20,006 bases of DNA from a virus. The position numbers and the translations under genes were made by a program. Positions 1,226 to 19,435 of the stretch are shown in pieces (the first letter of the stretch is position 1; the number at the start of each line of letters is the position of its first letter). Below the pieces are notes generated by a model that was not told the DNA's origin, did not search any database, and saw nothing but the letters and a program-made list of their open reading frames with translations. The stretch is from the IMG/VR virus record IMGVR_UViG_3300032883_000035, positions 1 to 20,006 of that record; one strand, 5' to 3'.

Positions 1226-4200
1226 ATGGCTGACCAAGTTCCGGCCGTCTGGGAATGGGATCCAACTACCAAAGATTGGGCCCCGCATTCAGGCGCTACT
1301 GATCGAATTCTCGCTCAGCAAAATCCGAATACCGGCGCGTGGTCCTATAAGCATCCGGAAACTCCCGGCCCTCAAGGCGTTCTTGGACATATTGCTGCGG
1401 CGGTTCCGGGGCACGCTTTCGAGCGCGGAATTCTTTCCACCCAGGAAGCATTAGCCCTCGGACAAAAAGGGCTGGGCGGCGATCCTAACGAAGCTGCACG
1501 TGACATCTCCACATTGGAACGTCGCCGGGCAGCCATTACTCCCCAAGGTCAAGAAGGCGAAGATATAGCCAAGCTCGGAACTCAGGATTCGCTCCTAGGC
1601 GAGATTGGTTTTTTTATGACGCATCCGTCGGCGGTGCTCAGCACCTTGTCCCAAGGGTTGGGCGAGATGCTTCCGTCTCTGGGTGTAGGTTCTGCCGTCG
1701 GTGCGACTACTGGTGCCGTGCTGGCTGCCACAGGCGTCGGCGCAACAGTCGCGGCTCCGGTTGCTGCGGTTGTCTCCGATCTTATGGGTGGTGCCAGCTT
1801 CGGTGCTCAAACCTACGGCACCTCGATTCTCGGTTCTCTAGCCCAGCGCGGCGTAAACATCCAGGATGCGACTTCTCTGGCTGCGGCACTCAAAGATCCG
1901 GCGATGATGGAAGCCGCCAAGAATGACGCCGTCAATCAAGGACTTGCGGCTGGGGCCACGTTCGCTGCAATGAATTTCCTAGGCGGGAAGGTTGCTCCGT
2001 TGGCGGCTCGGGCCCTCCCGAAAGATATCGGCGGATTCACGCGCGGGGCCGTTGGTCTCGGCGGCGAGGCGGCTACTCAGGCTGGCGTCGGCGCTGCCGG
2101 ATCGGTTGCCGGTCAGATGGCTTCGGGCGACGGCGATGTAAATAATCACGATGTCTGGACTCAGGCTTTGGGCGCGGCTGCGATGTCCCCGTTGATGCTG
2201 CTTCATGGCCGTAGCAAACCCCCCGAAGAGAAGCTTCCTCCAGGACAGGAATCTCAGGGCCGGACGACTTTCCCGGATCGAGATTCGGCCATCAAATGGC
2301 TCGCGGACAACGGGCACCTCCATAATGACATGGATGCTGCGCCCGACCTGCTGGTTATTCAACACGCCGAGCGCCTTGCCAACAAGGAAGAACTCGGCGG
2401 GCTTTTGGCTCCTCCATCAGCCCCGACTACGCGCGAAGTTCCCGGACTTGGAAATCTAACCGATGCCCAAATCGATCAGCATCTGGCGACCAACAACCAC
2501 ATTCCCGGAATGTCCGATATCTTGGGGGCCACGGAAGTCGATCCGAATGCCCGCCGCCAGGCCGGATTGGATTTGTTGCAACGACAACAAGGCAATACGG
2601 AAGCTACGGCCGTCAACATGGAGCATCCGGGCGGGACTCCTGTTCCGGGCGAGGGCGAGCCTTGGACGTTCACCGCGGGGAATCCATATGCACCTCCCGG
2701 GCTGGGTGTTCCTCCCAAAGGACTACATCAGGTAGCGCGGGCAGCTGTCGACCAAATTGCGGCCGGGACGCCTGTTACGCCGACACCGGATTTGATTAAG
2801 GCGGCGCGGGCTTCCGGCATCAAGGGGATCACCAAAGCGACCTCCGGTTCGGAGCTGGCTGATATGATCCTTAAGCAGCACGATCAACACTTGAAGGACC
2901 AGGCTGCACACTTGCAGGCCCGGGAGTGGGAACGTACCGCCGGGCAGTACCGACCGAGCCCGCTGGAGAATGCGCCTGTCATGGCTGTGTCTCCGGGCGG
3001 TCAGGATTTTACGGCGGCAACTCAGCCACTCAAAGTCGGATTCCGGGTGGGCGAGGCGGCTCCGGCGGCGACCACGATGGAAGAGCATCTCGACCGGATA
3101 GCTAAATCCCGCGAAGAGATCGGCAATATGAAGCCGGGCGATACAGTAGATAATACACAGTACTCGCCCGCGATCCTTAAGAAGATGGAAGGCGAAGGAC
3201 TTCTTCAAGAAATTCCAGGTATGGGAGTTTCCGTTAAGGGCAAGCCTACGGGCGAATTGACTTCCTACATACGGCTTCCCGATAAGGCTCCGAAAACAAG
3301 AGAGCCGGAAGTTTTCAATACGGTTGAGGAAGAACGGGCTGCTAATGCGCGGGACCGGGCTGCCCTCGAGAAGACGTTCGCACTTAACCATGAAGCTAAA
3401 GCTATCGTCAATGAAGTGGCAGCTGCTCCGGCAGAGGCGGGTAAGCCCGCTACTCAGGCCGAGAAAGCTGTGGCTAAGACTCACGGCGTAGTTCTTCCGG
3501 ATTTTCCGACCAAGGGGGCTGTGGCCGCCGGGCTGGATAAGGTCGAGGGCAACGCTAAGCTTCGGAAAGCACACGAGAAAGTAGCCAAGGGCCACGTCGA
3601 AATAAAGCCGGTGACCCGCGAAGAAGTCAACAAGGGCAAGCAAGCCTTAGCTAAAACTCCGGAGAAGACACCGGCGCTATCGACTGGTGAAAAGAATATT
3701 CTAGCCAAGCTTAAGGAACGCGGATCCTGGGTTGACGTTACGGGCACTTGGGTTCACGGAGCCAAACCTGTAATGCGTACTGTGTTAGCCGGGTTGGCTC
3801 GTCGGGGACTTGTCGAGCGTGGCTTTGATGCCAAAGGTAACGACGTATGGCGGCCCAAAGGGGAAAGCCCAGCTCCCAAGAAGATTAACGTTCCTGCGGG
3901 AAGGACTCTTCCGGCCGCGGTCGAAGCTAAGAAGATTGCCGAGGCAGTAGCCGCCGGTAAGGTTACTAAGGTGGAGGCTCCTACCAAAGAAGCCCGGACT
4001 ACGTTGTCTCCGGAAGCTAAGGTTCTGCTGAAGGCTATCGATGAACGTGGTGTTCCCGGATCATTGCAGATGTCGGATCGGCTTCGACAGATTGCCGACG
4101 ATCATGGAATCAAGTCCAACGATCCGCACGATATCTTGGCGGCACTTCAGAATATGCGTCCGAAAGAAGCTCCTACGCCAGAGGCTCCTGCGGGACTTAA

Positions 4201-7200
4201 GGCTAAGCTCGAGGGAACACCTCCTAAGTTGGCTCCCCGGTTGACTCCCGATGAGATGGGCACTCTTGAACTATTGAAGCGGGTCAAGCTTTGGCACGAA
4301 GGCAGCAAGGACAGCTGGGGCGAACCTAAGCATACCCTCATGGCGTTGAGTTCCCTGGAGAAAAAGGGCCTCGTTACTCGCTACGAAGCTGCTGGGAAAT
4401 CGGTTTGGAAGATTACTCCGCCGCCCGAAAAATCCGTAGGCTGGGCCCGCGAAGGCAAGCTGACTGTGTACTCCGGGATGCCTCCGAAGATGGAGCGCTT
4501 TACCAAGAACTTACTTAAGATGGTGGGACTTGGTAATCATAATTTGACGTTGGTCCCGATGTCGGAACTTATAAAGGATCCGGTGGGACTTGCCCGGCGT
4601 ATGAGTGGCGATGCCCGGACCGAGGCGCTTCTCCAAGAGATGGCTCTCAAGTACGCCGACAAGAATACTAATGGACTTTACCGAAATCTCGACGGGTCTA
4701 ACCACGTAATAGCCATTAAGGATTCGTTGCTCGATAAGGGCCCGGCAGTCTTTATCCCGACGCTGGCTCATGAGATCGGCCATATGGTAATGAGGGTGCA
4801 TTACGATCACGCGCCCGAAAGCATCAAGGCAGCTCTGGCTGAACAACACGCCAAAGATACGGCCGGAATTGGTAAGCCTGCGGGCTTTGTGAAAGACGAT
4901 CTCGCTAAGTTTTATAATCCGCTACACTACGGAGAGAACACACATCAGCTTCCCCAAGGCACTCGCTGGATGGAACTTGAGAACTCCGCAGAACACGCCA
5001 AGTACTTTAGAAGCTTTAACGAGTGGTTCGCTGAGAACGTCTCTAAGTGGGCCACTACCGACGAGAAGCCGCGTTCGCTGGTGGAGAGATTCTTCTCCGA
5101 AATCGCCAATCATATTCGCAAGTTAGCCCAGGCGGTTTTCGGCACCGAGCAAGGTCCGGCTGAGGCCGTTACCCGATTTATGCGGAATCTTCAGGACCAA
5201 CATCCGGTAGACGTTACGACAGGGCCCGGGCATTCGATGGCGGCCGAGTCGGCCAGTCGAGGCGTAGCTCGGGTAGCTGATCCGGTCCGGGAGCAGGCTA
5301 ATAAATTTGCGGTCGAGGCTAAAGACGGGGCGGAGATTGCTCCGGAACTCTCCAAGAATATGGCCCAGGCTGCGGAAGACTTTAAGCGCCAGGCCGAAAT
5401 CGACGCCGAGTATCCGCCATTTACGGATGTGCCTGAGCGGGCAATCAGCGTCAATGAGTTGTTGAAACGAATTCCGGGCGGCGATCCCCGCACACAGCCG
5501 GGCGACGTTGTAAACGATATAAGCCGGACGATGTATCATATCCTGTCCGTGGATCATATCATAGGTAATTTTAAATCCAAGCCAGGCATCAAGGAAATTG
5601 GGGCGGCTATTTTCGGGCAACAGGACATGTCGGCTAAGATTCGTCGCGAGTCTCTCGATGCTACTGTAGCTACGCGCCAGCTTAATAAAGTACACAACAA
5701 GATTGTTACCGATGGGCTGGAAGCGGCCGATGCTCTCGGGAAAGCTGCCGTCCTCCGGGACAACGTGGATGGAAGCCTTACGGTGGTGGGCAAGAAGGCC
5801 GACCTTAAGATGCCGCTCCGGTCCGGGGAACACGACGTTAATATTACGATCCCGAAAGAGGCAGTGGCCGGATTCAAGGCTGCCCGGGCGATGTTCGATA
5901 AGATGTTCGAGGAAAAGAACCGGTCTCTTCTGGCCAAGTTCGGGCTGGATGCCACCACCGATGTGAAGGGTCTCGATGCCCACATTAAGGATCTCGAGAA
6001 ACAACTGGAAAAGGCCGGTCGCGGCAGCGATGAAGCTAAGGGTCTTCGTGAGGACATTACGAAAGTCAAGGGCCTTCAAATGTACTTGGATACGGCAGGC
6101 GGGTTCCGGGATAACTACTTGCCGCGTATACGTCTTTCGGGCTGGGGTGCACTCGCACTGAAGATGACCGATCCGACGGGGCGGGACTGGGTGGGGAACT
6201 TCTCAAATCCGTTGCCGTTCCGTTCGAGGCAGATGGCCAACTCATTCCGGGAGGAGAAGCTGGCTCAAGGCTGGACCAACAAGGGAATTGTCAAGGCGGA
6301 CTCGACGCATTTGATTCGAGAAATCCGGGCCAAGGGAGACTCGTTCGATACTATCGAGCAGTTATCGCGGCTTCTTCTGGACGGGAATGACTCGATAATC
6401 AAGGATGAAAATGGCAAGCCCAAGAAGGACTTCCGTGGTCGTCCGGTGACTGAAGCCGACGAGATCATAAAACACTTGGGAGAGCTTCGTCAACTGTTTT
6501 TGGCCAATAAGATTGCCGGTGGGCGCTTCGCTAAGAGTCGCGATGTCCCTGGCTACTTACACAAATATAACGAGGCTAATTATCTTCAGGGGGCCATCAG
6601 TAGCTACGGGGCATCCGGTGCACAGTATATTGCGGCTAATACTTTTGCGCGGGCTAAGGCTGATGGTATGGCAGCTCTTGCGGCCGATCCGACGAGTCGC
6701 AGGCTCTACCAGTACTTTTTGGAACATGAAGTCGAAATGCGTACTCCAGGAGCCGGGGCGTCGATGCTGCGGGCTCTCGGGTTTCATTCGACGCTCGGGT
6801 TCAATCTGGCAAGTGCGTTCGTCAACACGTTCCAGATCATCCAGGCAACGTTGCCTTACTTGTCGCGCTTTGGTCCAACGGCATCCGCGACTAAACACAT
6901 TTCGACGGGCATGAAGGACGCGATGCGTCTGGTAGACTTCCGGCGCGGATACCAGGGCGGTGCCGATGAATTGTTTAACTTAGGGCCTAAGATGGACAAG
7001 ATACTTTCGCCGGAAGAAGCCGCGCTCTTGAGGCGGGCCCGGTATTCGGGAGACGCTGACCCGATTTTGACCGGCGAGCTTTCCGGTCACCAGGGCTCGC
7101 TGGGTAGTGCTAGTCCGTGGGAACGGGCACTGGGTCACGGGCTGGCTAAAGTTGGAGTCTGGTCCACGTTTGCGTTCTCGGCTACGGAACAGGCAACTCG

Positions 7201-8518
7201 CATCGGGGCTCTCTTGGCGGCGCATAGGTTCTTTACAGAACATCCGGAAGCCGCGACCAAGGCCATGGAATACATGAATACCCGGACTGCCTGGAATCCA
7301 AAGAACCTTGAGGATTTGGCACTTTATTCGTCTCGAGAAACCATGGGGTACTTTAATAAGGCGAACCGGCCAAGATTTCTCCATGGAATGGAGGGCGTTG
7401 CCCTTCAGTTCTCGCAGTACCCTTTGATGATGATGCAGCTTATGTTTAGGATGGCGGGCCAGGGTAAGGGCGCTATGAAGAACGAGGGTGGATTCAAGGC
7501 TCTTGGGCTCATGACTCTCGGCGTCTGGTTTACCGCTGGTCTAATGGGACTTCCTGGTGTTGGGCATATTTCAGGATTGTTTCAGGCGGGCTCCAACATT
7601 CTGGCCCCAGCTTTCGGGATGTCGCCTGTGGATGTGGATGTCGAGCTCCGGAAGGGCCTGGCTTCGGTGTTGCGCGAGATCGACATGCCGGACGACGCAG
7701 CCGCGCTCAATGTGATCCTGAAGGGTGGGTTCCGGCAAATGACCGGGATGTCTACAGAAGGCCGTACGGCGCTCAACTGGCCCCCTGAGAGTATGATGTC
7801 GGGCGATGCCCTTGATATCCTTGGACCTTTCGGAAGTGTGCTGTCGGGCGGGGTCGAGTCGGCCTATCGGTACAATGCTCAAGGACAAACGGGGCTGGCT
7901 ATCGCGTCGTTGTTCCCGAGCTTGGCGTTCCGCAACGTGGCGAAAGCCACCTACGCGCATCCCGGCCCGGCCGCTGGCGTTCTTGGAATTCCTGAGACTG
8001 GTATTGGGTTGCCGTCTGGGGAACGTGGGGCCAGTATTATCAAGCCGAGCGGGCCTGCCGGAGAAGGCCAGGGTCCGATGTCGGAATATGAGCATATGAT
8101 GTCAAGCCTAGGCATGACTCCGGCTCGTGTGGCAGATCTTCGAGAAGCCAATTACAACGAGAAACAAATTAACGAGCGCATGAAGGAAGTCCGGAATAAC
8201 TTCTCGACCAAGCTGGCCAATTACCAGGTCCAGTCGATTCTATTCCGGAACTCGGGGGATGTCGAGGGGGCCAAAGATATGCAGCGGAAGTATCAAGTTG
8301 CGCTCCAAGAAGCCATGGCTCACGATAAGCAACAACAAGACGCTCGCTATCGGTACATACTTAATCCGGGAGAACTTCAACGGTCTGTGCAAGAGAAGAC
8401 AAAGGTCTATTTGACAGGTCCGGCTGGTATGCCCGCTCTCCAGAAAATCCCGGCGCTCGAACGTCCGGCGGTTGTTCAGGAACGAAAGAAACTATTTGGA
8501 ATCGATATCGGATCTTAA
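1226..8518 (+). CDS. Giant internal virion / polyvalent protein with HExxH metalloprotease domain
   Basis: This is a 2430-residue protein with an ATG start, preceded by AAGG (1214-1217) at 8-nt spacing. Visible parts in order: a Gly/Ala-rich hydrophobic stretch at about 153-192 and a second Gly/Ala-rich stretch to about 330; long Pro/Ala/Lys linkers; two similar 60-residue segments at about 818-878 and 1006-1064 that read like winged-helix modules, with a third weaker unit at about 927-977; a zinc-peptidase motif HEIGH with H1182, E1183 and H1186; an acidic FNEWFAEN segment at about 1264-1271 offering a third ligand (E1266 or E1270); a coiled coil at about 1575-1620; a late NRPRF segment at about 2047-2051 followed by a hydrophobic helix, resembling the PLxRG region of large phage polyvalent proteins; and hydrophobic stretches at about 2090-2135. 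No lysozyme or transglycosylase motif was seen. Length and position suggest an ejected core protein comparable in role to T7 gp16. That role is inferred; the HExxH motif is directly visible. Confidence 0.8.
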   Translation: MADQVPAVWEWDPTTKDWAPHSGATDRILAQQNPNTGAWSYKHPETPGPQGVLGHIAAAVPGHAFERGILSTQEALALGQKGLGGDPNEAARDISTLERRRAAITPQGQEGEDIAKLGTQDSLLGEIGFFMTHPSAVLSTLSQGLGEMLPSLGVGSAVGATTGAVLAATGVGATVAAPVAAVVSDLMGGASFGAQTYGTSILGSLAQRGVNIQDATSLAAALKDPAMMEAAKNDAVNQGLAAGATFAAMNFLGGKVAPLAARALPKDIGGFTRGAVGLGGEAATQAGVGAAGSVAGQMASGDGDVNNHDVWTQALGAAAMSPLMLLHGRSKPPEEKLPPGQESQGRTTFPDRDSAIKWLADNGHLHNDMDAAPDLLVIQHAERLANKEELGGLLAPPSAPTTREVPGLGNLTDAQIDQHLATNNHIPGMSDILGATEVDPNARRQAGLDLLQRQQGNTEATAVNMEHPGGTPVPGEGEPWTFTAGNPYAPPGLGVPPKGLHQVARAAVDQIAAGTPVTPTPDLIKAARASGIKGITKATSGSELADMILKQHDQHLKDQAAHLQAREWERTAGQYRPSPLENAPVMAVSPGGQDFTAATQPLKVGFRVGEAAPAATTMEEHLDRIAKSREEIGNMKPGDTVDNTQYSPAILKKMEGEGLLQEIPGMGVSVKGKPTGELTSYIRLPDKAPKTREPEVFNTVEEERAANARDRAALEKTFALNHEAKAIVNEVAAAPAEAGKPATQAEKAVAKTHGVVLPDFPTKGAVAAGLDKVEGNAKLRKAHEKVAKGHVEIKPVTREEVNKGKQALAKTPEKTPALSTGEKNILAKLKERGSWVDVTGTWVHGAKPVMRTVLAGLARRGLVERGFDAKGNDVWRPKGESPAPKKINVPAGRTLPAAVEAKKIAEAVAAGKVTKVEAPTKEARTTLSPEAKVLLKAIDERGVPGSLQMSDRLRQIADDHGIKSNDPHDILAALQNMRPKEAPTPEAPAGLKAKLEGTPPKLAPRLTPDEMGTLELLKRVKLWHEGSKDSWGEPKHTLMALSSLEKKGLVTRYEAAGKSVWKITPPPEKSVGWAREGKLTVYSGMPPKMERFTKNLLKMVGLGNHNLTLVPMSELIKDPVGLARRMSGDARTEALLQEMALKYADKNTNGLYRNLDGSNHVIAIKDSLLDKGPAVFIPTLAHEIGHMVMRVHYDHAPESIKAALAEQHAKDTAGIGKPAGFVKDDLAKFYNPLHYGENTHQLPQGTRWMELENSAEHAKYFRSFNEWFAENVSKWATTDEKPRSLVERFFSEIANHIRKLAQAVFGTEQGPAEAVTRFMRNLQDQHPVDVTTGPGHSMAAESASRGVARVADPVREQANKFAVEAKDGAEIAPELSKNMAQAAEDFKRQAEIDAEYPPFTDVPERAISVNELLKRIPGGDPRTQPGDVVNDISRTMYHILSVDHIIGNFKSKPGIKEIGAAIFGQQDMSAKIRRESLDATVATRQLNKVHNKIVTDGLEAADALGKAAVLRDNVDGSLTVVGKKADLKMPLRSGEHDVNITIPKEAVAGFKAARAMFDKMFEEKNRSLLAKFGLDATTDVKGLDAHIKDLEKQLEKAGRGSDEAKGLREDITKVKGLQMYLDTAGGFRDNYLPRIRLSGWGALALKMTDPTGRDWVGNFSNPLPFRSRQMANSFREEKLAQGWTNKGIVKADSTHLIREIRAKGDSFDTIEQLSRLLLDGNDSIIKDENGKPKKDFRGRPVTEADEIIKHLGELRQLFLANKIAGGRFAKSRDVPGYLHKYNEANYLQGAISSYGASGAQYIAANTFARAKADGMAALAADPTSRRLYQYFLEHEVEMRTPGAGASMLRALGFHSTLGFNLASAFVNTFQIIQATLPYLSRFGPTASATKHISTGMKDAMRLVDFRRGYQGGADELFNLGPKMDKILSPEEAALLRRARYSGDADPILTGELSGHQGSLGSASPWERALGHGLAKVGVWSTFAFSATEQATRIGALLAAHRFFTEHPEAATKAMEYMNTRTAWNPKNLEDLALYSSRETMGYFNKANRPRFLHGMEGVALQFSQYPLMMMQLMFRMAGQGKGAMKNEGGFKALGLMTLGVWFTAGLMGLPGVGHISGLFQAGSNILAPAFGMSPVDVDVELRKGLASVLREIDMPDDAAALNVILKGGFRQMTGMSTEGRTALNWPPESMMSGDALDILGPFGSVLSGGVESAYRYNAQGQTGLAIASLFPSLAFRNVAKATYAHPGPAAGVLGIPETGIGLPSGERGASIIKPSGPAGEGQGPMSEYEHMMSSLGMTPARVADLREANYNEKQINERMKEVRNNFSTKLANYQVQSILFRNSGDVEGAKDMQRKYQVALQEAMAHDKQQQDARYRYILNPGELQRSVQEKTKVYLTGPAGMPALQKIPALERPAVVQERKKLFGIDIGS

Positions 8519-8841: not shown

Positions 8842-9006
8842 ATGGATAATAGTCCAGAGATGCGCTTTCGTTTGCTCATGTTCAACCTGGAATGCTTGAT
8901 ATGCTATGGGGCTTTGAGTGGACGGGATCCGGCCATAGTTGCTCACTGGATACTGCCCATACTGGACAAGCATAAAAAGCTAAGTAGGAGCTTCCTATAT
9001 GATTAA
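8842..9006 (+). CDS. Hypothetical 54-aa protein, possibly translated from a leaderless mRNA
   Basis: An open frame of 54 codons begins with ATG six bases after the -10 box at 8831-8836, so its first base is close to the predicted transcription start and there is no room for a leader or ribosome binding site. The stop TAA (9004-9006) lies 8 nt into the glycosyltransferase gene, a coupling-type overlap common in this window. The product is moderately hydrophobic with two Cys and a basic C-terminus (HKKLSR). Internal ATG codons at 8860 and 8878 also lack good ribosome sites. No family is recognised. The alternative is that 8842-8998 is an untranslated leader of the glycosyltransferase mRNA. The overlap and the absence of stops favour coding, but only moderately. 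Confidence 0.45.
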   Translation: MDNSPEMRFRLLMFNLECLICYGALSGRDPAIVAHWILPILDKHKKLSRSFLYD

Positions 9007-9745
9007 CGTATTCGTTGGTTGGGATAGCCGAGAAGTTCCTGCCTTTGAGGTAGCTAAGTATTCGTTGCAGCGGCGTAGTTCCCAGCCCGTCCGGTTCTTT
9101 CCTTTGGTGCGAAAGTCCCTCGAGTGGTCCGGTCTGTACCGTAGAGCATTCACCGAGGCCGACGGTCAACTCATTGATACTATTGACGGAAAGCCGTTCT
9201 CAACCGAATTTTCGTTTAGCCGATTCCTGACGCCCCTCATTGCCAAGAAGCACGGGCTGACCGGGAAGGTGTTGTTTGTGGACTGCGACTTCATGTTCCT
9301 GGATGACGTTGCCCGGCTTTTCGATTCGGAGTTTAACGATCCGGTCGCCGTAGTCAAGCACGATTTTACGCCGCGGAATTCCCACAAGATGGACGGCCGA
9401 GCCCAGCAACCCTATCCGTGTAAGCTTTGGTCGTCCCTAATGTTGTTCAATCTGGATCATCTGGGTTGGGATAAGCTAACGGTCGATGCGGTCAATGAGC
9501 GTCCCGGGTCCTGGCTGCACCAATTCCGGTGGGCTTCTTCGGTGGGGGAACTCGATCCGGCGTGGAACTTTATACCGGGGCACTCTAAAGGAAAGCCGAA
9601 GGCGGTCCACTACACGGAGGGCGTTCCCATCTTCAATGGTTATGAAAAGAAACCGTGGGCCGCGGAGTGGCTACTCGAGCAGCAATGCTTCGAGGCTTCA
9701 ATTGGAAAACTAAGTGAACGTGGAGTTACTTACGATGTTGTCTAA
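8999..9745 (+). CDS. GT8-like glycosyltransferase
   Basis: A 248-residue protein with an ATG start and a strong AGGAG site at 8986-8990 (8-nt spacing). The N-terminus (INVFVGWDSRE) begins like GT-A-fold transferases. VLFVDCDFMF at 91-100 supplies the D95-x-D97 metal and nucleotide-sugar motif. The C-terminal HYTEGVPIF...KKPW segment (204-220) resembles the HxGxxKPW region of GT8 family enzymes, including a likely metal-ligand His204. It would transfer a sugar from a nucleotide-sugar donor in the cytoplasm; donor and acceptor cannot be read from the sequence. Its gene overlaps the next by 11 nt and shares the promoter at 8808, so the two probably act on the same target, such as a host surface glycan, a phage structural protein or a small metabolite. 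I am confident in the GT-A fold and less so in the family number. Confidence 0.8.
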   Translation: MINVFVGWDSREVPAFEVAKYSLQRRSSQPVRFFPLVRKSLEWSGLYRRAFTEADGQLIDTIDGKPFSTEFSFSRFLTPLIAKKHGLTGKVLFVDCDFMFLDDVARLFDSEFNDPVAVVKHDFTPRNSHKMDGRAQQPYPCKLWSSLMLFNLDHLGWDKLTVDAVNERPGSWLHQFRWASSVGELDPAWNFIPGHSKGKPKAVHYTEGVPIFNGYEKKPWAAEWLLEQQCFEASIGKLSERGVTYDVV

Positions 9746-11972
9746 ATACCGGATATTGTCTTGCATGGGACCGGGCGGCTATGATCTGTACGGGAAACGC
9801 TTTCTTGAAATGTTGACTGCCTTCTGGGCACCGGACATCCAGCTTACGATGTTTTACCATGACTGTGAGCTTCCGGAAGATGCCAAACGATTCGAGGATC
9901 GGGTTCAGTTCGTACATCTCAACGAATACGACGGGGACTTTGTAGCGTTCTCGGCCAAAGCTAAGCACGCGAACGGGATCCAGTCCGACGGGACGTATGC
10001 ATTCCGGTTCGACGCGAAGAAGTTCTGCGCCAAAGTGTTTGCCACCTCGATGACCATGACCCAGTCCGAGGAAGAGTGGTTGATCTGGCTGGACGCGGAT
10101 ACCTTCACGCATCAGCCGGTCAGTACGGAGTGGTTGGACGAGACGTTGGACCAAAGTGCGGACATCGTCCACCTGGGCCGTACGGGTGCTTCCTACTCGG
10201 AGACTTCCTTTGTGGCATTCCACCGACCGGGCGACAAGGCTAAGGTCCTCCTACAGGACATGCGTGATATGTATGTGGACGGGGAGATCTTCTTCTACAC
10301 CGAATGTCATGACGGGTTTGTGTTCGAGCGCCTACTTTACATGCATAAAGCCCACGGAATGAAAACTCAGTCGCTGACTATCGACGGGTACGATGGGCTC
10401 GAGGCATTCGAAAACTCGCCGTTGGTGCGGAAGATGCATCACCTTAAAGGCAATCGTAAGAACGAGAAAGACCTTCCGCTGATTTCCCGGTACGATCAAT
10501 TGACGGAAATCGTGAAGCATTATGCGCACCTCAAGGATAAGTTTGTACTTCTGGAGACCGGGACAAACGGTGGTACACGGGCTATCGAGATGGCCAACGC
10601 TGCGTTCGCAATGGGAGTTAAGGAAGTAACTTATTCGGGATTCGATCTCTTCGAGGATGCTACCGCGGAAACCGATGCGCGGGAATTCAATACTAAGAAT
10701 CACTTCACGGTCGAAGAAGTTACCAAGAAACTTCAGGACTATGCAGATCAAGTTGGGAGGAACGGCCGGAAGTTTAAGTTCAATCTGGTCAAGGGCGATA
10801 CCACGAAAACGTTGGGGCCACAAGAAGCCGATCTGGCGTTTCTGGATGGCGGGCATTCTCCCGAGACCGTGGCTTGGGATTTCGCTCAATGCTCCGGGGT
10901 GGACGTTGTGGTTCTGGATGACTACATTGTTCCCGATAAGAGCGGCGACTGTCCGGGCCCGGAACATCTGGGGACGAACCTTCTGGTGGATTCGCTGACG
11001 TGCCGGAAGACGGTATACGAATCCAAGGACATGGTTGCTAAGGGCGGGATTACAAAGATTGCTGCGGTGCTACAGCATCCGAAAACGAAAGACTTTCCCA
11101 AATTGGGAACTACCGTCGGGAGCATGCGCCAGCTACAGATTAATCCGCATGATTGCGTGGAGCAGCCGGAGCTTATTCAGAACGTCGAAGAGAATCTAAA
11201 GCTGATTAAAGACTGGCTGCCTACGTGTAAGCCGCATGCCCGGGAGATGGTGATCGTCGGGGGCGGGCCGAATGTCCGTAAAAACTTTGAGGATATCCGG
11301 AGACACCAGCGGAACGGGGCTTTCATTGCGGCCGTTAAGCATGCGGTACCGTTTATGCACGAGGCCGGGATCCATGTTGATGCCGTAGTGGTACTTGACC
11401 CGCGTCCGATCAAGGGGGTTTCGACTCACGGAGTTGTTCGGGAAGAACTGTTCGGGATGGTGGACTTGGATACGCGGGTGTGGGTTGCTTCCATGACCGA
11501 CCCTACGGTAACTAAATACCTTATTGGCCGGGGCGTCCGGGTGCAGGGTTGGCATGCCTTGACAAAGGGACTTGCCGAGTGGACTGGTTGGCCTAAGGAG
11601 GCACGTCTAATCGCGGGTGGAACGTGCTCGGCATGGCGGACTGTCGGCCTGGGAAATATGCTGGGATTCCAGACGTTTCACATCTATGGCCTTGACTTAT
11701 GCTACGATCCTGCTACAATCAATGTTGACGAAAAGGATGAACAGGGCCGTCCGAAGTATCTGAAAGTATCATTGGACGAGGATGCGATCAAGTACCATAC
11801 GACCGGGGAATTAGCGGCGGCGGCCCAGGACATCAAGACCATTATGGAGATGGCCACTATGTTTGGGCTCGAGCTTTATGTTCACGGTGAAGGACTCGGG
11901 CCGGACGCTTGGCGTAAGGCTTACGGTGGGTTAGCCCAGAAGAAGCACAACTTTGAGAAAGATGTAGTCTGA
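9735..11972 (+). CDS. Three-domain fusion: glycosyltransferase-like, class I methyltransferase-like, DUF115/MptE-like
   Basis: I start at ATG 9735, preceded by GGAG at 9722-9725; an in-frame GTG at 9714 is less likely. The product has 745 residues. Residues 1-240 resemble a GT-A glycosyltransferase, with WLIWLDADTF at 115-124 carrying D120-x-D122. Residues 250-440 resemble a class I SAM-dependent methyltransferase of the Methyltransf_24 type: ETGTNGGTRAIEMA at 274-287 (SAM loop), GFDLFED at 302-308, FLDGGHSPETV at 369-379, and VVLDDY at 392-397. Residues 500-735 match the DUF115 / MptE-like pattern: VIVGGGPNV at 506-514, a VVVLDPRP strand at 551-558, and GGTCSAWRT...IYGLDLCY at 628-657. DUF115 proteins include flagellin-modifying Maf proteins and archaeal hydroxymethylpterin diphosphokinase. 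One chain may therefore add and modify sugars. It overlaps its neighbours on both sides, indicating coupled translation. The substrate is unknown. Confidence 0.75.
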   Translation: MLSKYRILSCMGPGGYDLYGKRFLEMLTAFWAPDIQLTMFYHDCELPEDAKRFEDRVQFVHLNEYDGDFVAFSAKAKHANGIQSDGTYAFRFDAKKFCAKVFATSMTMTQSEEEWLIWLDADTFTHQPVSTEWLDETLDQSADIVHLGRTGASYSETSFVAFHRPGDKAKVLLQDMRDMYVDGEIFFYTECHDGFVFERLLYMHKAHGMKTQSLTIDGYDGLEAFENSPLVRKMHHLKGNRKNEKDLPLISRYDQLTEIVKHYAHLKDKFVLLETGTNGGTRAIEMANAAFAMGVKEVTYSGFDLFEDATAETDAREFNTKNHFTVEEVTKKLQDYADQVGRNGRKFKFNLVKGDTTKTLGPQEADLAFLDGGHSPETVAWDFAQCSGVDVVVLDDYIVPDKSGDCPGPEHLGTNLLVDSLTCRKTVYESKDMVAKGGITKIAAVLQHPKTKDFPKLGTTVGSMRQLQINPHDCVEQPELIQNVEENLKLIKDWLPTCKPHAREMVIVGGGPNVRKNFEDIRRHQRNGAFIAAVKHAVPFMHEAGIHVDAVVVLDPRPIKGVSTHGVVREELFGMVDLDTRVWVASMTDPTVTKYLIGRGVRVQGWHALTKGLAEWTGWPKEARLIAGGTCSAWRTVGLGNMLGFQTFHIYGLDLCYDPATINVDEKDEQGRPKYLKVSLDEDAIKYHTTGELAAAAQDIKTIMEMATMFGLELYVHGEGLGPDAWRKAYGGLAQKKHNFEKDVV

Positions 11973-15899: not shown

Positions 15900-16130
15900 T
15901 TACTCATCGATGTTGGGGCCTTTCAAGTTGGGGCGACACCGGAACTTGATGTCGGAGCGTACCACATAAGTTGAAGTTCGGCTAAGACTTCTTCCGGTCG
16001 GGGTAACAATTTCCAGTGTCATGGGCTCAGCAGTAACCGTGTAGTTGAAGCCGCGGACCTTCCAATAGGTTTGAATTTTCCGGGCGAGGGCTTCGGCGTT
16101 CTTGCGCTCTAACCAATCGGTTTGTTTCAT
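15900..16130 (-). CDS. Hypothetical 76-aa protein downstream of DNA polymerase
   Basis: The start ATG (16130) overlaps the polymerase stop by 3 bases in an ATGA arrangement; GGAGG lies a few bases upstream (CCTCC on the plus strand at about 16136-16140). The N-terminal 30 residues form a charged helix (WLERKNAEALARKIQTYW), followed by a beta-rich part (YTVTAEPMTLEIVTPTG...STYVVRSDIKF). The alpha-then-beta layout, with many basic residues, is common in small phage DNA-associated proteins. I recognise no family. Its tight coupling to the polymerase gene suggests coordinated expression. Confidence 0.75.
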   Translation of the reverse strand: MKQTDWLERKNAEALARKIQTYWKVRGFNYTVTAEPMTLEIVTPTGRSLSRTSTYVVRSDIKFRCRPNLKGPNIDE

Positions 16131-17590
16131 AACGTCCTCCCAATTTTAATGTGATCGTTCCAGGGCATAAGCCCTAATGGATTTTCCACGGTTCCGTCTT
16201 TAAGGGTGATTCGCTTCCCCCAAGACAGCCCAATGGAAGCTTCCCAAGGGACAACCATTTGGCGAACTGTACCAGAGATATCGGTGACGGACAAGGGCGT
16301 GGTGAGCCCCGCCAGGATCTTATCTTTCCAGGCCAGCTCATCTCCCTTCGGAACCTGTAGGATGGCCGCGTCGTGTCCGTTCGCCAGCAGTTGTAGCTCG
16401 GGGTCATAGAGCCTCCATAGGTTGAGCATCCCGGTTAACGTTAAGTCGGAGACCGTCGATTGCGGGACGTAGGCAATTGCGGCCCTAATAGTTGCGTCAT
16501 CCCAGGCTCGGTTCCACACGTAACGCCGCCGACCGAAGGGAGTGGTAAGGCAGCCTTTGCTTTGGATTTCGAGCGCTGTCCACTCTTGCCACTTCCGGAT
16601 TTTCGGGAAGGCTTTGAAGTACTTTGCTTGGAACTCTTCGATGACCGCGGTTTCGACTTTGAGCACTTTAGCAATTGTTCGAGCGCTTCCATTGTAATTA
16701 CTGCCATGGGCTGCCCGCTTGGCAATATCGCGATACGACATGTCACGATAGTACTTCCTTTCAGCCAAGGCTTTATCAGGGGCGAATCCAAACACCATAC
16801 TAGCGACGATTGTGTGAACATCTCCGGCCTCCAACGCTGCAATGTAATTAGGATCTCCAGATAGATAGGCTACGGCCCGCGCTTCTGCGCCCTGCTGGTC
16901 ACAGGAATACAGTACGTGCCCGGGATCTGCGACGAAGGCGCGTCGGATGTAGTCGTCAACGTTTTGTATATTCGCGCCGATACGTAACGGATGTTCAGAC
17001 GACGACAGCCGCCCCGAATCGGTTCCGCCTATATTGTAGGAGCAGTGCCAGCGCTGGTTTTTAAGTGTCGTTGAAAGTGCGTCGATCACCTTTTGCTCAT
17101 CGCGCAGAAGCAGGATCATGTGTGCAAACGGTTCAGCCCGCGGATACTCCTTGCCAACTCGCTCGAGGGCATCCCGGTCCAGGGAAGTTTTAACCTTACC
17201 CTTCTTGCTGGAGATCTGCTCGGGAATTAACAGCCTTCGGTAAAAGAGTTCTTGAAGTTGCAGGTTCGACCGATAGTTAAAATCCGGTTTCGGCCACACC
17301 ACCTGCACAAAATCCACAAGTGCTTTCTGATAGAGTGTAACCTTGGCCGTCAGCTCAGCTATAACCTTCTGCTTCATATCTTCATCAACGAGGAAGCCGC
17401 GATTCATCATGGATAAAATCGGGCCGAGGTTGGACCGCTCGAACTCGTAGGTCTTACGAGCGACGGAATCCATGCGGCCGTTGAGGGCGTCTTCGATTTC
17501 GACCGTCAACATCGAATCCAACGAGCAGTAGACTAGCTGCTGGGTGTGGTCGTCCATCTTAGGAAGATTGTCAGTTACGTAGGTCTTCAT
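16127..17590 (-). CDS. DNA polymerase A catalytic chain with residual Exo III segment
   Basis: A 487-residue protein; the ATG at 17590 overlaps the upstream stop (TGATG) and follows GGAG. A TTG at 17593 would add one residue. Residues 17-30 (QQLVYCSLDSMLTV) carry Y21-x3-D25, the signature of proofreading motif Exo III. Polymerase motifs: TDSGRLSSSEHPL...NIQN at 190-210; motif A SCDQQGAEAR at 229-238 with D231; motif B RDIAKRAAHGSNYNGS at 287-302 with R287, K291 and Y299, but His295 where Pol I has Phe762 and T7 has Tyr526; motif C GHDAA at 405-409 with D407. In motif C the Glu usual after Asp is Ala. The chain lacks Exo I and II; these are in the gene at 18407-19435. It replicates phage DNA; the family assignment is secure. 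Confidence 0.93.
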   Translation of the reverse strand: MKTYVTDNLPKMDDHTQQLVYCSLDSMLTVEIEDALNGRMDSVARKTYEFERSNLGPILSMMNRGFLVDEDMKQKVIAELTAKVTLYQKALVDFVQVVWPKPDFNYRSNLQLQELFYRRLLIPEQISSKKGKVKTSLDRDALERVGKEYPRAEPFAHMILLLRDEQKVIDALSTTLKNQRWHCSYNIGGTDSGRLSSSEHPLRIGANIQNVDDYIRRAFVADPGHVLYSCDQQGAEARAVAYLSGDPNYIAALEAGDVHTIVASMVFGFAPDKALAERKYYRDMSYRDIAKRAAHGSNYNGSARTIAKVLKVETAVIEEFQAKYFKAFPKIRKWQEWTALEIQSKGCLTTPFGRRRYVWNRAWDDATIRAAIAYVPQSTVSDLTLTGMLNLWRLYDPELQLLANGHDAAILQVPKGDELAWKDKILAGLTTPLSVTDISGTVRQMVVPWEASIGLSWGKRITLKDGTVENPLGLMPWNDHIKIGRTL

Positions 17591-17982
17591 CAATCCGTCT
17601 CCGGTTTGCGGCCATAGACCATCTCAGATACCACCTCCCTCTTGATGCGGCGGCCTTCGGAGATTGCCCGCTTAGTGATAGCACGAATCAAGTCGGGATT
17701 CAAGTCCGCCAGGACGCATATGTCTACGTAGTCCGTGGCCGTTGGTTCCGACGTCGAAAAAATGTAGGAGCGGGCCTTGCGTTGAATGTAGGCCGGGCTG
17801 TCCTCGCTGGTATCTTTAGAGCGAGCAACAACCTCGTCCGGGATGGTAGCGTCCGCCAGGAGCTGGCCTACGACTTCCACCCATAAGACGGCTTCCGGAG
17901 CTATGGTAGTTCCTACTGTTAAGTGCGTTTCTTGATATTCAATTTCATCAAAGCCCGGGTCGACCGCTGAGACTGTCGGCAT
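17590..17982 (-). CDS. Hypothetical 130-aa phage early protein
   Basis: Starts at ATG 17982, overlaps the previous gene by 35 nt and the polymerase start by one codon. The segment PEAVLWVEVVGQLLADAT (29-46) followed by IQRKARSYIFSTSEPTATDYVDICVLADLNPDLIRAITKRAI is similar to a small conserved protein found in rhizobial prophages and phages, as I remember it. That pattern has a first helix with LW..V..Q...DA, then an arginine-rich helix, then DF..VC.LA..DPD..R. I cannot name the family. The last 25 residues are basic. It lies between the two halves of the polymerase, and its codon use looks like the surrounding genes. Confidence 0.75.
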   Translation of the reverse strand: MPTVSAVDPGFDEIEYQETHLTVGTTIAPEAVLWVEVVGQLLADATIPDEVVARSKDTSEDSPAYIQRKARSYIFSTSEPTATDYVDICVLADLNPDLIRAITKRAISEGRRIKREVVSEMVYGRKPETD

Positions 17983-18202
17983 TACTTAAATCCCTATAAT
18001 GTTGAGACACTTCTTGCATTAAATTAAAATAATAATTAACCATTCCCGAGCGAGTATATTGCTGAGGAGTAATACTTAGACGATACAATAATGTGTAAAT
18101 ATGTTTCTGGATTAGATCTGAGTCTACAGAGTCGGTCACTCCGAACATAGCATTCAAACCGGAGCGTAGAATCTCACTATCATACTTACTTGCTAGTGCC
18201 AT
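17948..18202 (-). CDS. Hypothetical 84-aa AT-rich small protein
   Basis: ATG 18202 is preceded on the minus strand by GGAG with 7-nt spacing, a good site inside the end of the upstream gene (17-nt overlap). The product is mostly helical (SEILRSGLNAMF, LIQKHIYTLLYRL, MVNYYFNLMQEVSQHYRDL), with no catalytic motif or membrane helix. The DNA between about 17985 and 18180 is clearly richer in A and T than the flanking polymerase genes, which suggests recent acquisition. The C-terminus overlaps the next gene by 35 nt. No family is recognised. Confidence 0.65.
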   Translation of the reverse strand: MALASKYDSEILRSGLNAMFGVTDSVDSDLIQKHIYTLLYRLSITPQQYTRSGMVNYYFNLMQEVSQHYRDLSNADSLSGRPGL

Positions 18203-18407
18203 AAGCCATCTCCTTGGAGAGCCGGTGAAGTTCTCGAATCATGATTGAAATACACGGGTGCGGGTAACCCTTCTGGAGGATGGCTCGGCAAAGGCTGCGT
18301 ACAGTATGGATATTTCTCGGCGCATAGATTGACTGGTAGCTGGTCCAGCCGAAGGAATGACGCTCGGTAGCTTTGAATATTAGGTCAGCCGATCCCAATC
18401 CGAACAT
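18186..18407 (-). CDS. Hypothetical 73-aa protein following the UDG-exonuclease gene
   Basis: ATG 18407 overlaps the preceding stop by one base (TAATG), and its stop overlaps the next gene by 17 nt. The ribosome site is weak, so translation is likely coupled. The product has a short hydrophobic start, aromatic residues around 19-30 (SFGWTSYQSIY), and a basic C-terminal helix (ISIMIRELHRLSKEMA). No membrane segment, Cys/His cluster or known motif is evident. It is the first of the three small genes that separate the exonuclease domain from the polymerase. Confidence 0.65.
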   Translation of the reverse strand: MFGLGSADLIFKATERHSFGWTSYQSIYAPRNIHTVRSLCRAILQKGYPHPCISIMIRELHRLSKEMAYGTSK

Positions 18408-19435
18408 TATTCGTCTGCCTTGTTGAGGTCTTTGACAAGCCCTGTGCGCATCAGTTTCCAGGCGGCCTCATTGCAGTAAATGCTGCCGAGGAAGCCGAGG
18501 GATTTTGGCCACTCGATCTGGTAACTGTGGGACATAAGCATTGTGTCATCTACTTGACCTGCAACGATAATATCATGCTCGCGGCAGTAGGTCAAGTCAT
18601 ATGTGGCGTTGTGGGCGAGCTTTCTGATGGCCGGATCCTCGAGAATGAGGGCCAGCCGGGTCCAGATTTCGACCTCTATTGGGGCCACGAATTGGTGGTA
18701 GCCGGGCTTCTGATAGTTCCAGAAGGGAATTACAAACGATTCCAAGGGGTTAGCGGCCAGTGAAATGCAGGTGATCTGGGAGTGCGCGGTCTCGACGTCG
18801 AAGGCACAAAATCCGGCGGCGGTGATTTGGGCGACGGCCCGATCCATATCGGCTACGTTCTCGACGATGTTGACGGTGCGGGACTTGCGCCGGACTTCGG
18901 GAAACTGAAGCTCGACGGTGGCCTTGACAAGGTCTGAGCTGACGATGGGCCGAAGCGACCAGTCGTTCCGGATGCTGTGCGGGTGGTGCGTTGGGATAAG
19001 CTTGGCCGGGCCGTGAGTGAGGACGGTGCCGCGATAGTCGTTGATCTTATCGAGGCCAGCCAGGGCCCAAAGGGCAAGCCCACCGAAGGCAATGATGATC
19101 CGGGGGTTAGCTTCCTTAAGCTCGTCGTCCAGGCGCTGTAGGTCCCCTTCAAAGGCAGGGAGGAGGTAGCCGAACTTGGGGTGCTTGGGGGTACCGCTGC
19201 CGGATTTCGAAAAGTAACCGGCCGGTTCGAAGCGGGAGACCGGGGACGTAAATACGTTACCGACCCAACAGGCTTCCCGGTCGATCCCGGCGAAGGCCAA
19301 CAGACTGTCCAGCATCTTGCCCGTCTGGCCGGTCAGGGGTTTCTTGTCTATGACGGAGTCGGCATCCGGGAAGTCCCCTAGGAGGTAGATCCCGTTTGGG
19401 GCCACTGAGGGGCGTTCACTCTGAATGGTTGCCAT
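18407..19435 (-). CDS. Uracil-DNA glycosylase-like domain fused to 3'-5' exonuclease motifs I-II
   Basis: I chose ATG 19435 (342 residues). An in-frame TTG at 19504 would overlap the upstream stop but has no ribosome site, and its added residues precede the domain. Residues 14-180 follow the UDG superfamily (family 4/5-like) order: GIYLLGDFPDADS (15-27; GDFP for the usual GEAP), TGQTGKMLDSLL (35-46), VGNVFTSP (58-65), PRIIIAFGGLALWAL (111-125), RGTV (135-138) and THHPHSI (149-155). The paired N-terminal Cys of family 4 [4Fe-4S] enzymes are not seen. Residues 205-330 are a DnaQ-like proofreading domain with AFDVET (D213, E215; Exo I), AHNATYD (N276, D280; Exo II) and DDTML at 296-300. The gene stops before Exo III, which is found instead in the polymerase gene. 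The protein probably works with that polymerase and scans for uracil. Confidence 0.8.
   Translation of the reverse strand: MATIQSERPSVAPNGIYLLGDFPDADSVIDKKPLTGQTGKMLDSLLAFAGIDREACWVGNVFTSPVSRFEPAGYFSKSGSGTPKHPKFGYLLPAFEGDLQRLDDELKEANPRIIIAFGGLALWALAGLDKINDYRGTVLTHGPAKLIPTHHPHSIRNDWSLRPIVSSDLVKATVELQFPEVRRKSRTVNIVENVADMDRAVAQITAAGFCAFDVETAHSQITCISLAANPLESFVIPFWNYQKPGYHQFVAPIEVEIWTRLALILEDPAIRKLAHNATYDLTYCREHDIIVAGQVDDTMLMSHSYQIEWPKSLGFLGSIYCNEAAWKLMRTGLVKDLNKADE

Follow-up and report, generated by a model that had tools for sequence, protein, structure and literature searches.

A family A phage DNA polymerase encoded by two genes, with a proofreading site that is probably completed between the two proteins

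Family A DNA polymerases are among the best studied enzymes and Klenow-type proofreading is taken to be a property of a single chain. In phages such as ctMlz233 (MW202489) and Microcystis phage Mel-JY34 (PP438425), a UDG-like domain, the 3'-5' exonuclease domain and the polymerase domain are found in one open reading frame (PHROG_17). Other phage enzymes are known to be encoded in pieces. The NrdA of Aeromonas phage Aeh1, an essential phage enzyme, is divided into NrdA-a and NrdA-b by the HNH homing endonuclease MobE, with the break in a functionally critical region, and the split enzyme is fully active (PMC2988022). Gene 43 of Aeromonas phages 25 and 44RR, which encodes a family B polymerase, is split into 43A and 43B at another break point, and the two products of phage 25 co-purify with polymerase activity (PMC2988022). 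A split family A polymerase was described for the OM43 phages MEP401/MEP402 and relatives, for which an intron was proposed (PMC10580990). There the break lies inside the polymerase domain, so that one piece holds the whole exonuclease and the N-terminal part of the polymerase and the other its C-terminal part; Vibrio phage VS-ABTNL-3 resembles this type. Literature searches for a split family A exonuclease domain found none, although only open-access papers were covered and this does not prove absence.

In this paper we looked at a stretch of 20,006 nucleotides (the window), positions 1 to 20,006 of the IMG/VR virus record IMGVR_UViG_3300032883_000035. The original prediction was that the proofreading exonuclease of a family A polymerase is split here between two genes by a three-gene insertion, giving either a two-subunit polymerase or a loss of proofreading.

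The two polymerase genes and the spacer between them

The division of the exonuclease motifs over two genes is confirmed. All features lie on the minus strand:

18407 to 19435, minus: chain 1, 342 aa, ATG at 19435 and stop ending at 18407; UDG-like domain (residues 16-161) and the N-terminal part of the 3'-5' exonuclease domain, with Exo I (D213-V-E215) and Exo II (N276-A-T-Y-D280); the chain ends in WKLMRTGLVKDLNKADE followed by the stop
17590 to 18407, minus: spacer of 816 bp between the two polymerase genes, filled by three overlapping small ORFs
18186 to 18407, minus: small ORF 1, 73 aa, no family match, no homologue in the spacers of relatives
17948 to 18202, minus: small ORF 2, 84 aa, no family match, no homologue in the spacers of relatives
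17590 to 17982, minus: small ORF 3, 130 aa, member of a family found in the spacer of 33 of about 100 split loci, all in the subclade of the window
16127 to 17590, minus: chain 2, 487 aa, ATG at 17590 and stop ending at 16127; Exo III (Y21-C-S-L-D25) at the N-terminus, followed by the thumb, palm and fingers of a family A DNA polymerase (catalytic D231 and D407, motif B R287-K291-H295-Y299)

The genes overlap by TAATG at 18407, by 17 nt, by 35 nt and by TGATG at 17590. Pfam finds UDG (8e-10) and DNA_pol_A_exo1 (5e-5) on chain 1 and DNA_pol_A (PF00476, 6e-43) on chain 2. The phage DNA polymerase profile PHROG_17 runs on from chain 1 (profile 482-783) to chain 2 (profile 807-1240), so that almost nothing is missing at the break. 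The summed length of 829 aa compares with about 780-810 aa for fused relatives. The polymerase domain is whole on chain 2, which differs from the MEP401 type. D231 and D407 are invariant in 54/54 rows of the alignment and the R-x3-K of motif B is present, but the residue at the position of E. coli Phe762 is His instead of F/Y/L, as it is in the fused relatives, which have the same domains in the same order and all exonuclease and polymerase residues. The motifs of a DEDDy exonuclease (Exo I DxE, Exo II D and Exo III YxxxD) are all present but, in contrast to the fused relatives, not on one polypeptide. It was asked whether an Exo III already exists on the 342-aa chain and none was found: the only near-invariant acidic columns after Exo II are the D of the DTML motif and the E of the E-W-P-K/P-E-x-x-K stretch. 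The junction aligns with a loop of fused relatives, just before the Exo III helix, with the break between WKDEGKDWDAKTGED and QLWFYNCKD. Fused relatives have about 17 residues between WK and the Exo III tyrosine, against about 35 shared by the two new termini in the window.

Conservation and origin of the break

The same break occurs in 109 distinct loci, which are 107 IMG/VR sequences including the phage of the window, the isolate Caulobacter phage Kuura (OQ067476), and the locus L190, which was split independently. In Kuura the exonuclease chain (Kuura_029) and the polymerase chain (Kuura_026) are separated by two other small genes; they are annotated only as 'hypothetical protein' and 'DNA polymerase', and no split is mentioned in the paper on this phage (PMC9959647). 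A scan of genome contigs gave only five weak MAG hits. D213, E215, N276 and D280 are kept in 109/109 exonuclease chains and Y21 and D25 in 109/109 polymerase chains. Both chains are under purifying selection, with a dN/dS of 0.07-0.35 for the exonuclease chain and 0.06-0.29 for the polymerase chain, and the distances between loci correlate between the chains (r=0.86). The motif columns were each checked in the alignment used; an earlier MAFFT alignment of 114 rows, in which all exonuclease fragments were misplaced, was discarded.

The spacer varies from -4 bp (overlapping genes) to about 5 kb, with different and unrelated content, and eight split loci have no spacer gene at all. L145 has about 5.05 kb between the genes on a 44 kb contig. 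In L156 the polymerase gene is inverted relative to the exonuclease gene, which looked like decisive evidence against joining in cis, but this contig is only 5.8 kb and may be chimeric, and L145 is used instead. Of the three ORFs in the window, only the 130-aa ORF is an old resident of this site in the subclade, and the other two have no relative in the neighbouring loci. The 130-aa ORF was considered as a third subunit or as a displaced piece of the exonuclease. Yet, it matches no Pfam or PHROG family, is confined to one subclade and is absent from the eight loci without spacer genes, and we treat it as cargo.

In the FastTree tree the split sequences other than L190 (99/99) form one clade (SH 0.93) beside the one-gene relatives, which are the sister group; an interim IQ-TREE tree also placed 99/99 of them together. 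L190 is nested among fused phages (0.999 for the three-sequence node) and carries an HNH endonuclease gene (phrog_3377, 9e-28) at the same junction, whilst its relatives L184, L185 and L187 are fused. HNH endonucleases also lie in the spacers of three other split loci (L049, L081 and L085), but none remains in the window, and for the old split only more distant fused relatives exist. The case of L190 suggests how the old split arose. The overlap of a start codon with the upstream stop (UAAUG) is as found at T4 mobE/nrdA (PMC2988022). The Aeh1 example regards a different enzyme and a single phage, whereas here the break is old and clade-wide and the endonuclease is mostly gone.

The original interpretation is partly supported. 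It was right that the exonuclease domain is divided between Exo II and Exo III, and the two-subunit reading is the better of its two alternatives. It was wrong or too narrow in regarding the break as the result of a three-gene insertion in this phage, since the break is ancestral to a large clade and the spacer content turns over freely and may be absent altogether.

A predicted two-subunit replicase and its alternatives

AlphaFold2 was used to model the natural read-through of both genes, with 272 unrelated residues as a disordered linker. The model has a pLDDT above 90 over nearly all of both chains and a pTM of 0.76, and it superposes on Klenow as one body (1kfs_A, Z 31.7, 555 of 601 residues, rmsd 4.9, model 185 to 1090), which is more residues than the 487 of chain 2. 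A second model, from split, unpaired sequences only and without fused homologues in the alignment, gives a pTM of 0.72 and the same match (6vdd_A, Z 31.4, 541 residues). These models are tethered in one chain and AlphaFold2 knows the Klenow family, so they show compatibility and not affinity.

The explanation that we hold with good confidence is that the two genes encode the two subunits of one family A polymerase. In this view the chains are translated separately from one operon and associate in trans, so that D25 (and Y21) of chain 2 would complete the proofreading site built by D213, E215 and D280 of chain 1. The break most likely began when a free-standing homing endonuclease gene inserted between the Exo II and Exo III codons; after the endonuclease was lost the boundary would have stayed, and other small genes would have come and gone there. 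The division of the motifs, its conservation, its single main origin plus one independent origin with an HNH endonuclease in place, and the purifying selection are shown by our analysis, whereas the binding of the two chains and their reassembly into an active enzyme, the proofreading activity and the endonuclease as cause of the old split are inferred from sequences, models and precedent. The conserved K(K/R)DE tail of chain 1 (KRDE or KKDE) is not excluded as a binding element. However, its codons also spell a Shine-Dalgarno sequence before an overlapping start (AAGAGGGATGAATGA in the loci L170 and L161), so that it may serve the next gene, and we do not use it as evidence of assembly.

One alternative option is that the two genes are joined before or during translation, by a group I/II intron, an intein or a programmed frameshift. 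The 816 bp between the chain 1 stop and the chain 2 start are a multiple of three, introns are common in phage polymerase genes, and inteins do occur elsewhere in these polymerase chains. Yet, no Rfam intron match was found in the region at E up to 1, the spacer is filled with overlapping ORFs, most relatives have spacers that are not a multiple of three, the shortest (-4 bp) have no room for an intron, and frameshifting cannot cross the long ones. Splicing or frameshifting is thus very unlikely on this comparative evidence, which does not include transcripts. An artefact of sequencing or assembly, conceivable for a metagenomic contig, is refuted by the same architecture in over 100 independent contigs and in an isolated, sequenced phage.

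Another hypothesis is that proofreading is lost and the polymerase chain works alone, with the exonuclease chain as a remnant or with another job, for example as a UDG-like DNA-binding protein. Family A polymerases without active exonuclease exist, such as Taq or divPolA1 (PMC11348598), and in several relatives the UDG-like part has lost the usual motifs, so that domains of this protein can decay. This is unlikely, as it is contradicted by the invariant catalytic residues in 109 loci and by selection on the exonuclease chain that is as strong as on the polymerase chain, and Exo III has no purpose on chain 2 unless it meets chain 1. Residue conservation could also reflect an exonuclease chain that completes its site with another partner, such as host Pol I or a spacer gene product, since small genes often sit between the two and one family recurs in a third of loci. 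We consider this very unlikely too, because that family is confined to one subclade, eight split loci have no spacer gene, and the models dock the exonuclease part onto chain 2 as in Klenow without further parts.

A more speculative possibility, which our data do not exclude but which we regard as doubtful, is that the break is not just tolerated but useful. If the proofreading site exists only when the two chains are together, the phage could run its replicase with or without proofreading, or exchange exonuclease subunits, so that fidelity or strand displacement would be set by the supply of chain 1. This would be a family A replicase with a separable proofreading subunit, in function like the epsilon subunit of Pol III but with a shared active site.

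What differs here from the described split polymerases is that the break lies inside the exonuclease site, so that the catalytic carboxylates of one active site are encoded by two genes. This arrangement explains why the exonuclease genes are annotated as hypothetical proteins, and it warns that surveys of phage PolA will score these polymerases as exonuclease-less. The natural split point is also a practical lead for engineered split polymerases. A clade of over a hundred phage sequences of this kind, with one isolate (Kuura) in culture, makes it directly testable whether a composite proofreading site can be stable over long evolution, how split enzymes persist after the mobile element that cut them is gone, and whether separating the subunits tunes fidelity.

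The two genes in the window and their relatives

In this work we looked at the minus strand of the window, in which the parts of one predicted family A DNA polymerase follow each other in order of transcription:

19435-18407, minus strand, UDG-exonuclease gene, 342 aa (chain 1), with Exo I (D213, E215) and Exo II (N276, D280)
between 18407 and 17590, minus strand, three small ORFs of 73, 84 and 130 aa that overlap one another and both neighbours (TAATG at 18407, 17 nt, 35 nt and TGATG at 17590)
17590-16127, minus strand, polymerase gene, 487 aa (chain 2), with Exo III (Y21, D25) and the complete polymerase domain

One PHROG profile (phrog_17) is matched at positions 482-783 by chain 1 and at positions 807-1240 by chain 2, so the two chains are consecutive parts of one enzyme. 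The original prediction had placed the exonuclease motifs on two genes, and its coordinates and residues are right. Its interpretation, a three-gene insertion that leaves either a two-subunit polymerase or a polymerase without proofreading, is only partly supported, as the break is not a local insertion and the loss of proofreading is contradicted by the data described below.

By searching IMG/VR with each chain and with alignments of both, about 150 loci were collected (numbered here with the prefix L), and all of those with both hits encode them in separate frames. After removal of identical exo domains there are 109 split loci: 107 IMG/VR sequences including the window's own phage, Caulobacter phage Kuura, and L190. 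These counts are of distinct exo sequences and not of species, and many of the contigs are fragments. The first chain always stops 8-20 residues after the conserved WK, whilst the second starts about 20 residues before the Exo III tyrosine. The space between the genes ranges from -4 bp (an ATGA overlap, in L073, L087, L155 and L170) to 2.8 kb (L071), and to about 5.05 kb in L145, where the polymerase was found further along the 44-kb contig. In L018 (Vibrio phage VS-ABTNL-3, MF497422) the UDG-exo-polymerase is broken at another place, inside the polymerase domain, with a 184-aa ORF between the halves.

Outside the polymerase locus, the window encodes at 9714-11972 a 752-aa protein with a methyltransferase-like domain (Methyltransf_24) and a C-terminal MptE-like domain (PF01973, 4e-19), next to a GT8-like glycosyltransferase (8999-9745), which is unusual cargo near the lysis genes. 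A 2430-aa protein (1226-8518) shows a weak partial match to phrog_11358 (unknown function) and is probably a large virion protein.

Residue conservation and the predicted structure

In 109 of 109 exo chains D213, E215, N276 and D280 are invariant, and in 109 of 109 polymerase chains Y21 and D25 are invariant. For close pairs, dN/dS is 0.07-0.35 for the exo chain and 0.06-0.29 for the polymerase chain. Pairwise distances of the two chains correlate (r=0.86), which shows common inheritance but not, by itself, contact between the chains. The UDG-like domain of chain 1 (within 18407-19435) has lost the usual GExPG motif, with GDFPDAD in the window and LLDYPS in loci L002-L010, while fused relatives keep GEFPG or GEAPG; this domain may be a structural or DNA-binding relic. 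In the polymerase chain (16127-17590), the motif B residue H295, which is equivalent to E. coli Pol I Phe762, is His in 104/104 split and 17/20 fused relatives tested. A 2026 preprint on viral PolA names only Tyr, Phe and Leu at this position (PMC13228545). The His may affect nucleotide selection and marks the whole UDG-exo-pol group.

The chain 1 stop and the chain 2 start are in the same frame (816 = 3 x 272), and the natural read-through, with stops read as Gly, therefore gives both chains tethered by 272 unrelated residues. An AlphaFold2 model was predicted from 94 rows, including 13 fused relatives, and shows pLDDT above 90 for nearly all of both chains, a disordered linker and pTM 0.76. 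Superposition of this model by VIA-align on the Klenow structure 1kfs_A covers 555 residues (Z 31.7, rmsd 4.9) and spans model residues 185-1090. As 555 exceeds the 487 residues of chain 2, exo residues of chain 1 are in the same superposition. To remove the help of fused relatives, a second model was created from split, unpaired rows only, which resulted in pTM 0.72 and the same match (6vdd_A, 541 residues, Z 31.4). These models support a composite Klenow-like enzyme, yet the chains were tethered and AlphaFold2 has learned the Klenow family. The division of the motifs, its recurrence and the invariance of the residues are seen directly in the sequences, whereas the association of the two chains and a proofreading activity of the composite site are inferred from sequence and prediction alone.

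ALTERNATIVES

One possible option is that the two genes are joined by splicing or frameshifting, but this is rejected by the range of spacers and by the lack of intron matches. Another option is that proofreading was lost, which is contradicted by the invariance of the exonuclease residues and by the selection on the chains. An artefact is excluded by the recurrence of the break in over 100 contigs and in an isolate.

Split phage replication enzymes have already been described: NrdA of Aeh1 and gp43A/B of Aeromonas phages are both functional in pieces (PMC2988022), and family A polymerases of OM43 phages are cut inside the polymerase domain (PMC10580990). A family A polymerase that is cut inside its exonuclease active site, with the break kept over a large clade, was not found in the papers searched, which were open-access only, and the paper on Kuura itself does not mention it.

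Origin of the break and turnover of the spacer

In the polymerase tree, the 99 split sequences usable for it form one clade (SH 0.93) with no fused member inside, next to a fused clade (SH 1.0) of ctMlz233-like phages, and the same grouping is seen in an interim IQ-TREE tree. L190 lies within the fused clade (0.999) and is split on its own. Its chain 1 ends in ...WKPDKTTWKVGG, followed by an HNH endonuclease gene (phrog_3377, 9e-28) and then by a polymerase chain that starts just before YNCLD. So the same loop was cut twice, once recently with the endonuclease still in place. HNH genes are also found in the spacers of L049, L081 and L085. Furthermore, intein-like insertions lie in the polymerase chains of L126 (6363-8732), L140 (6336-8786) and L171 (7737-10190), at three different conserved sites (before SNYGG of motif B, before TNLQN and before SGDLHT); they start with Cys and end in VTGN/ITGN, and L171 has a LAGLIDADG match. 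Taken together, these data make a homing-endonuclease origin of the old split likely, though only moderately so, and for that split it remains an inference.

The spacers carry unrelated small genes, and their 201 ORFs fall into 15 clusters and about 100 singletons. They include HNH endonucleases, nucleoside deoxyribosyltransferase-like proteins, ThyX, MazG-like proteins and a DNA ligase. The window's 130-aa ORF belongs to a family that is found in the spacer of 33 loci, all in the window's subclade (SH 0.97), whilst the other two ORFs have no relatives in other spacers. Even very close relatives differ: L155 has overlapping genes and L159 has a 318-bp insert at the same place. Spacers of many split loci carry nucleotide-metabolism genes (deoxyribosyltransferase-like, DUF7768, DUF1937, MazG-like and ThyX; observed for window positions 16206-16130 and the spacers of relatives), so the break acts as a site where such genes are exchanged.
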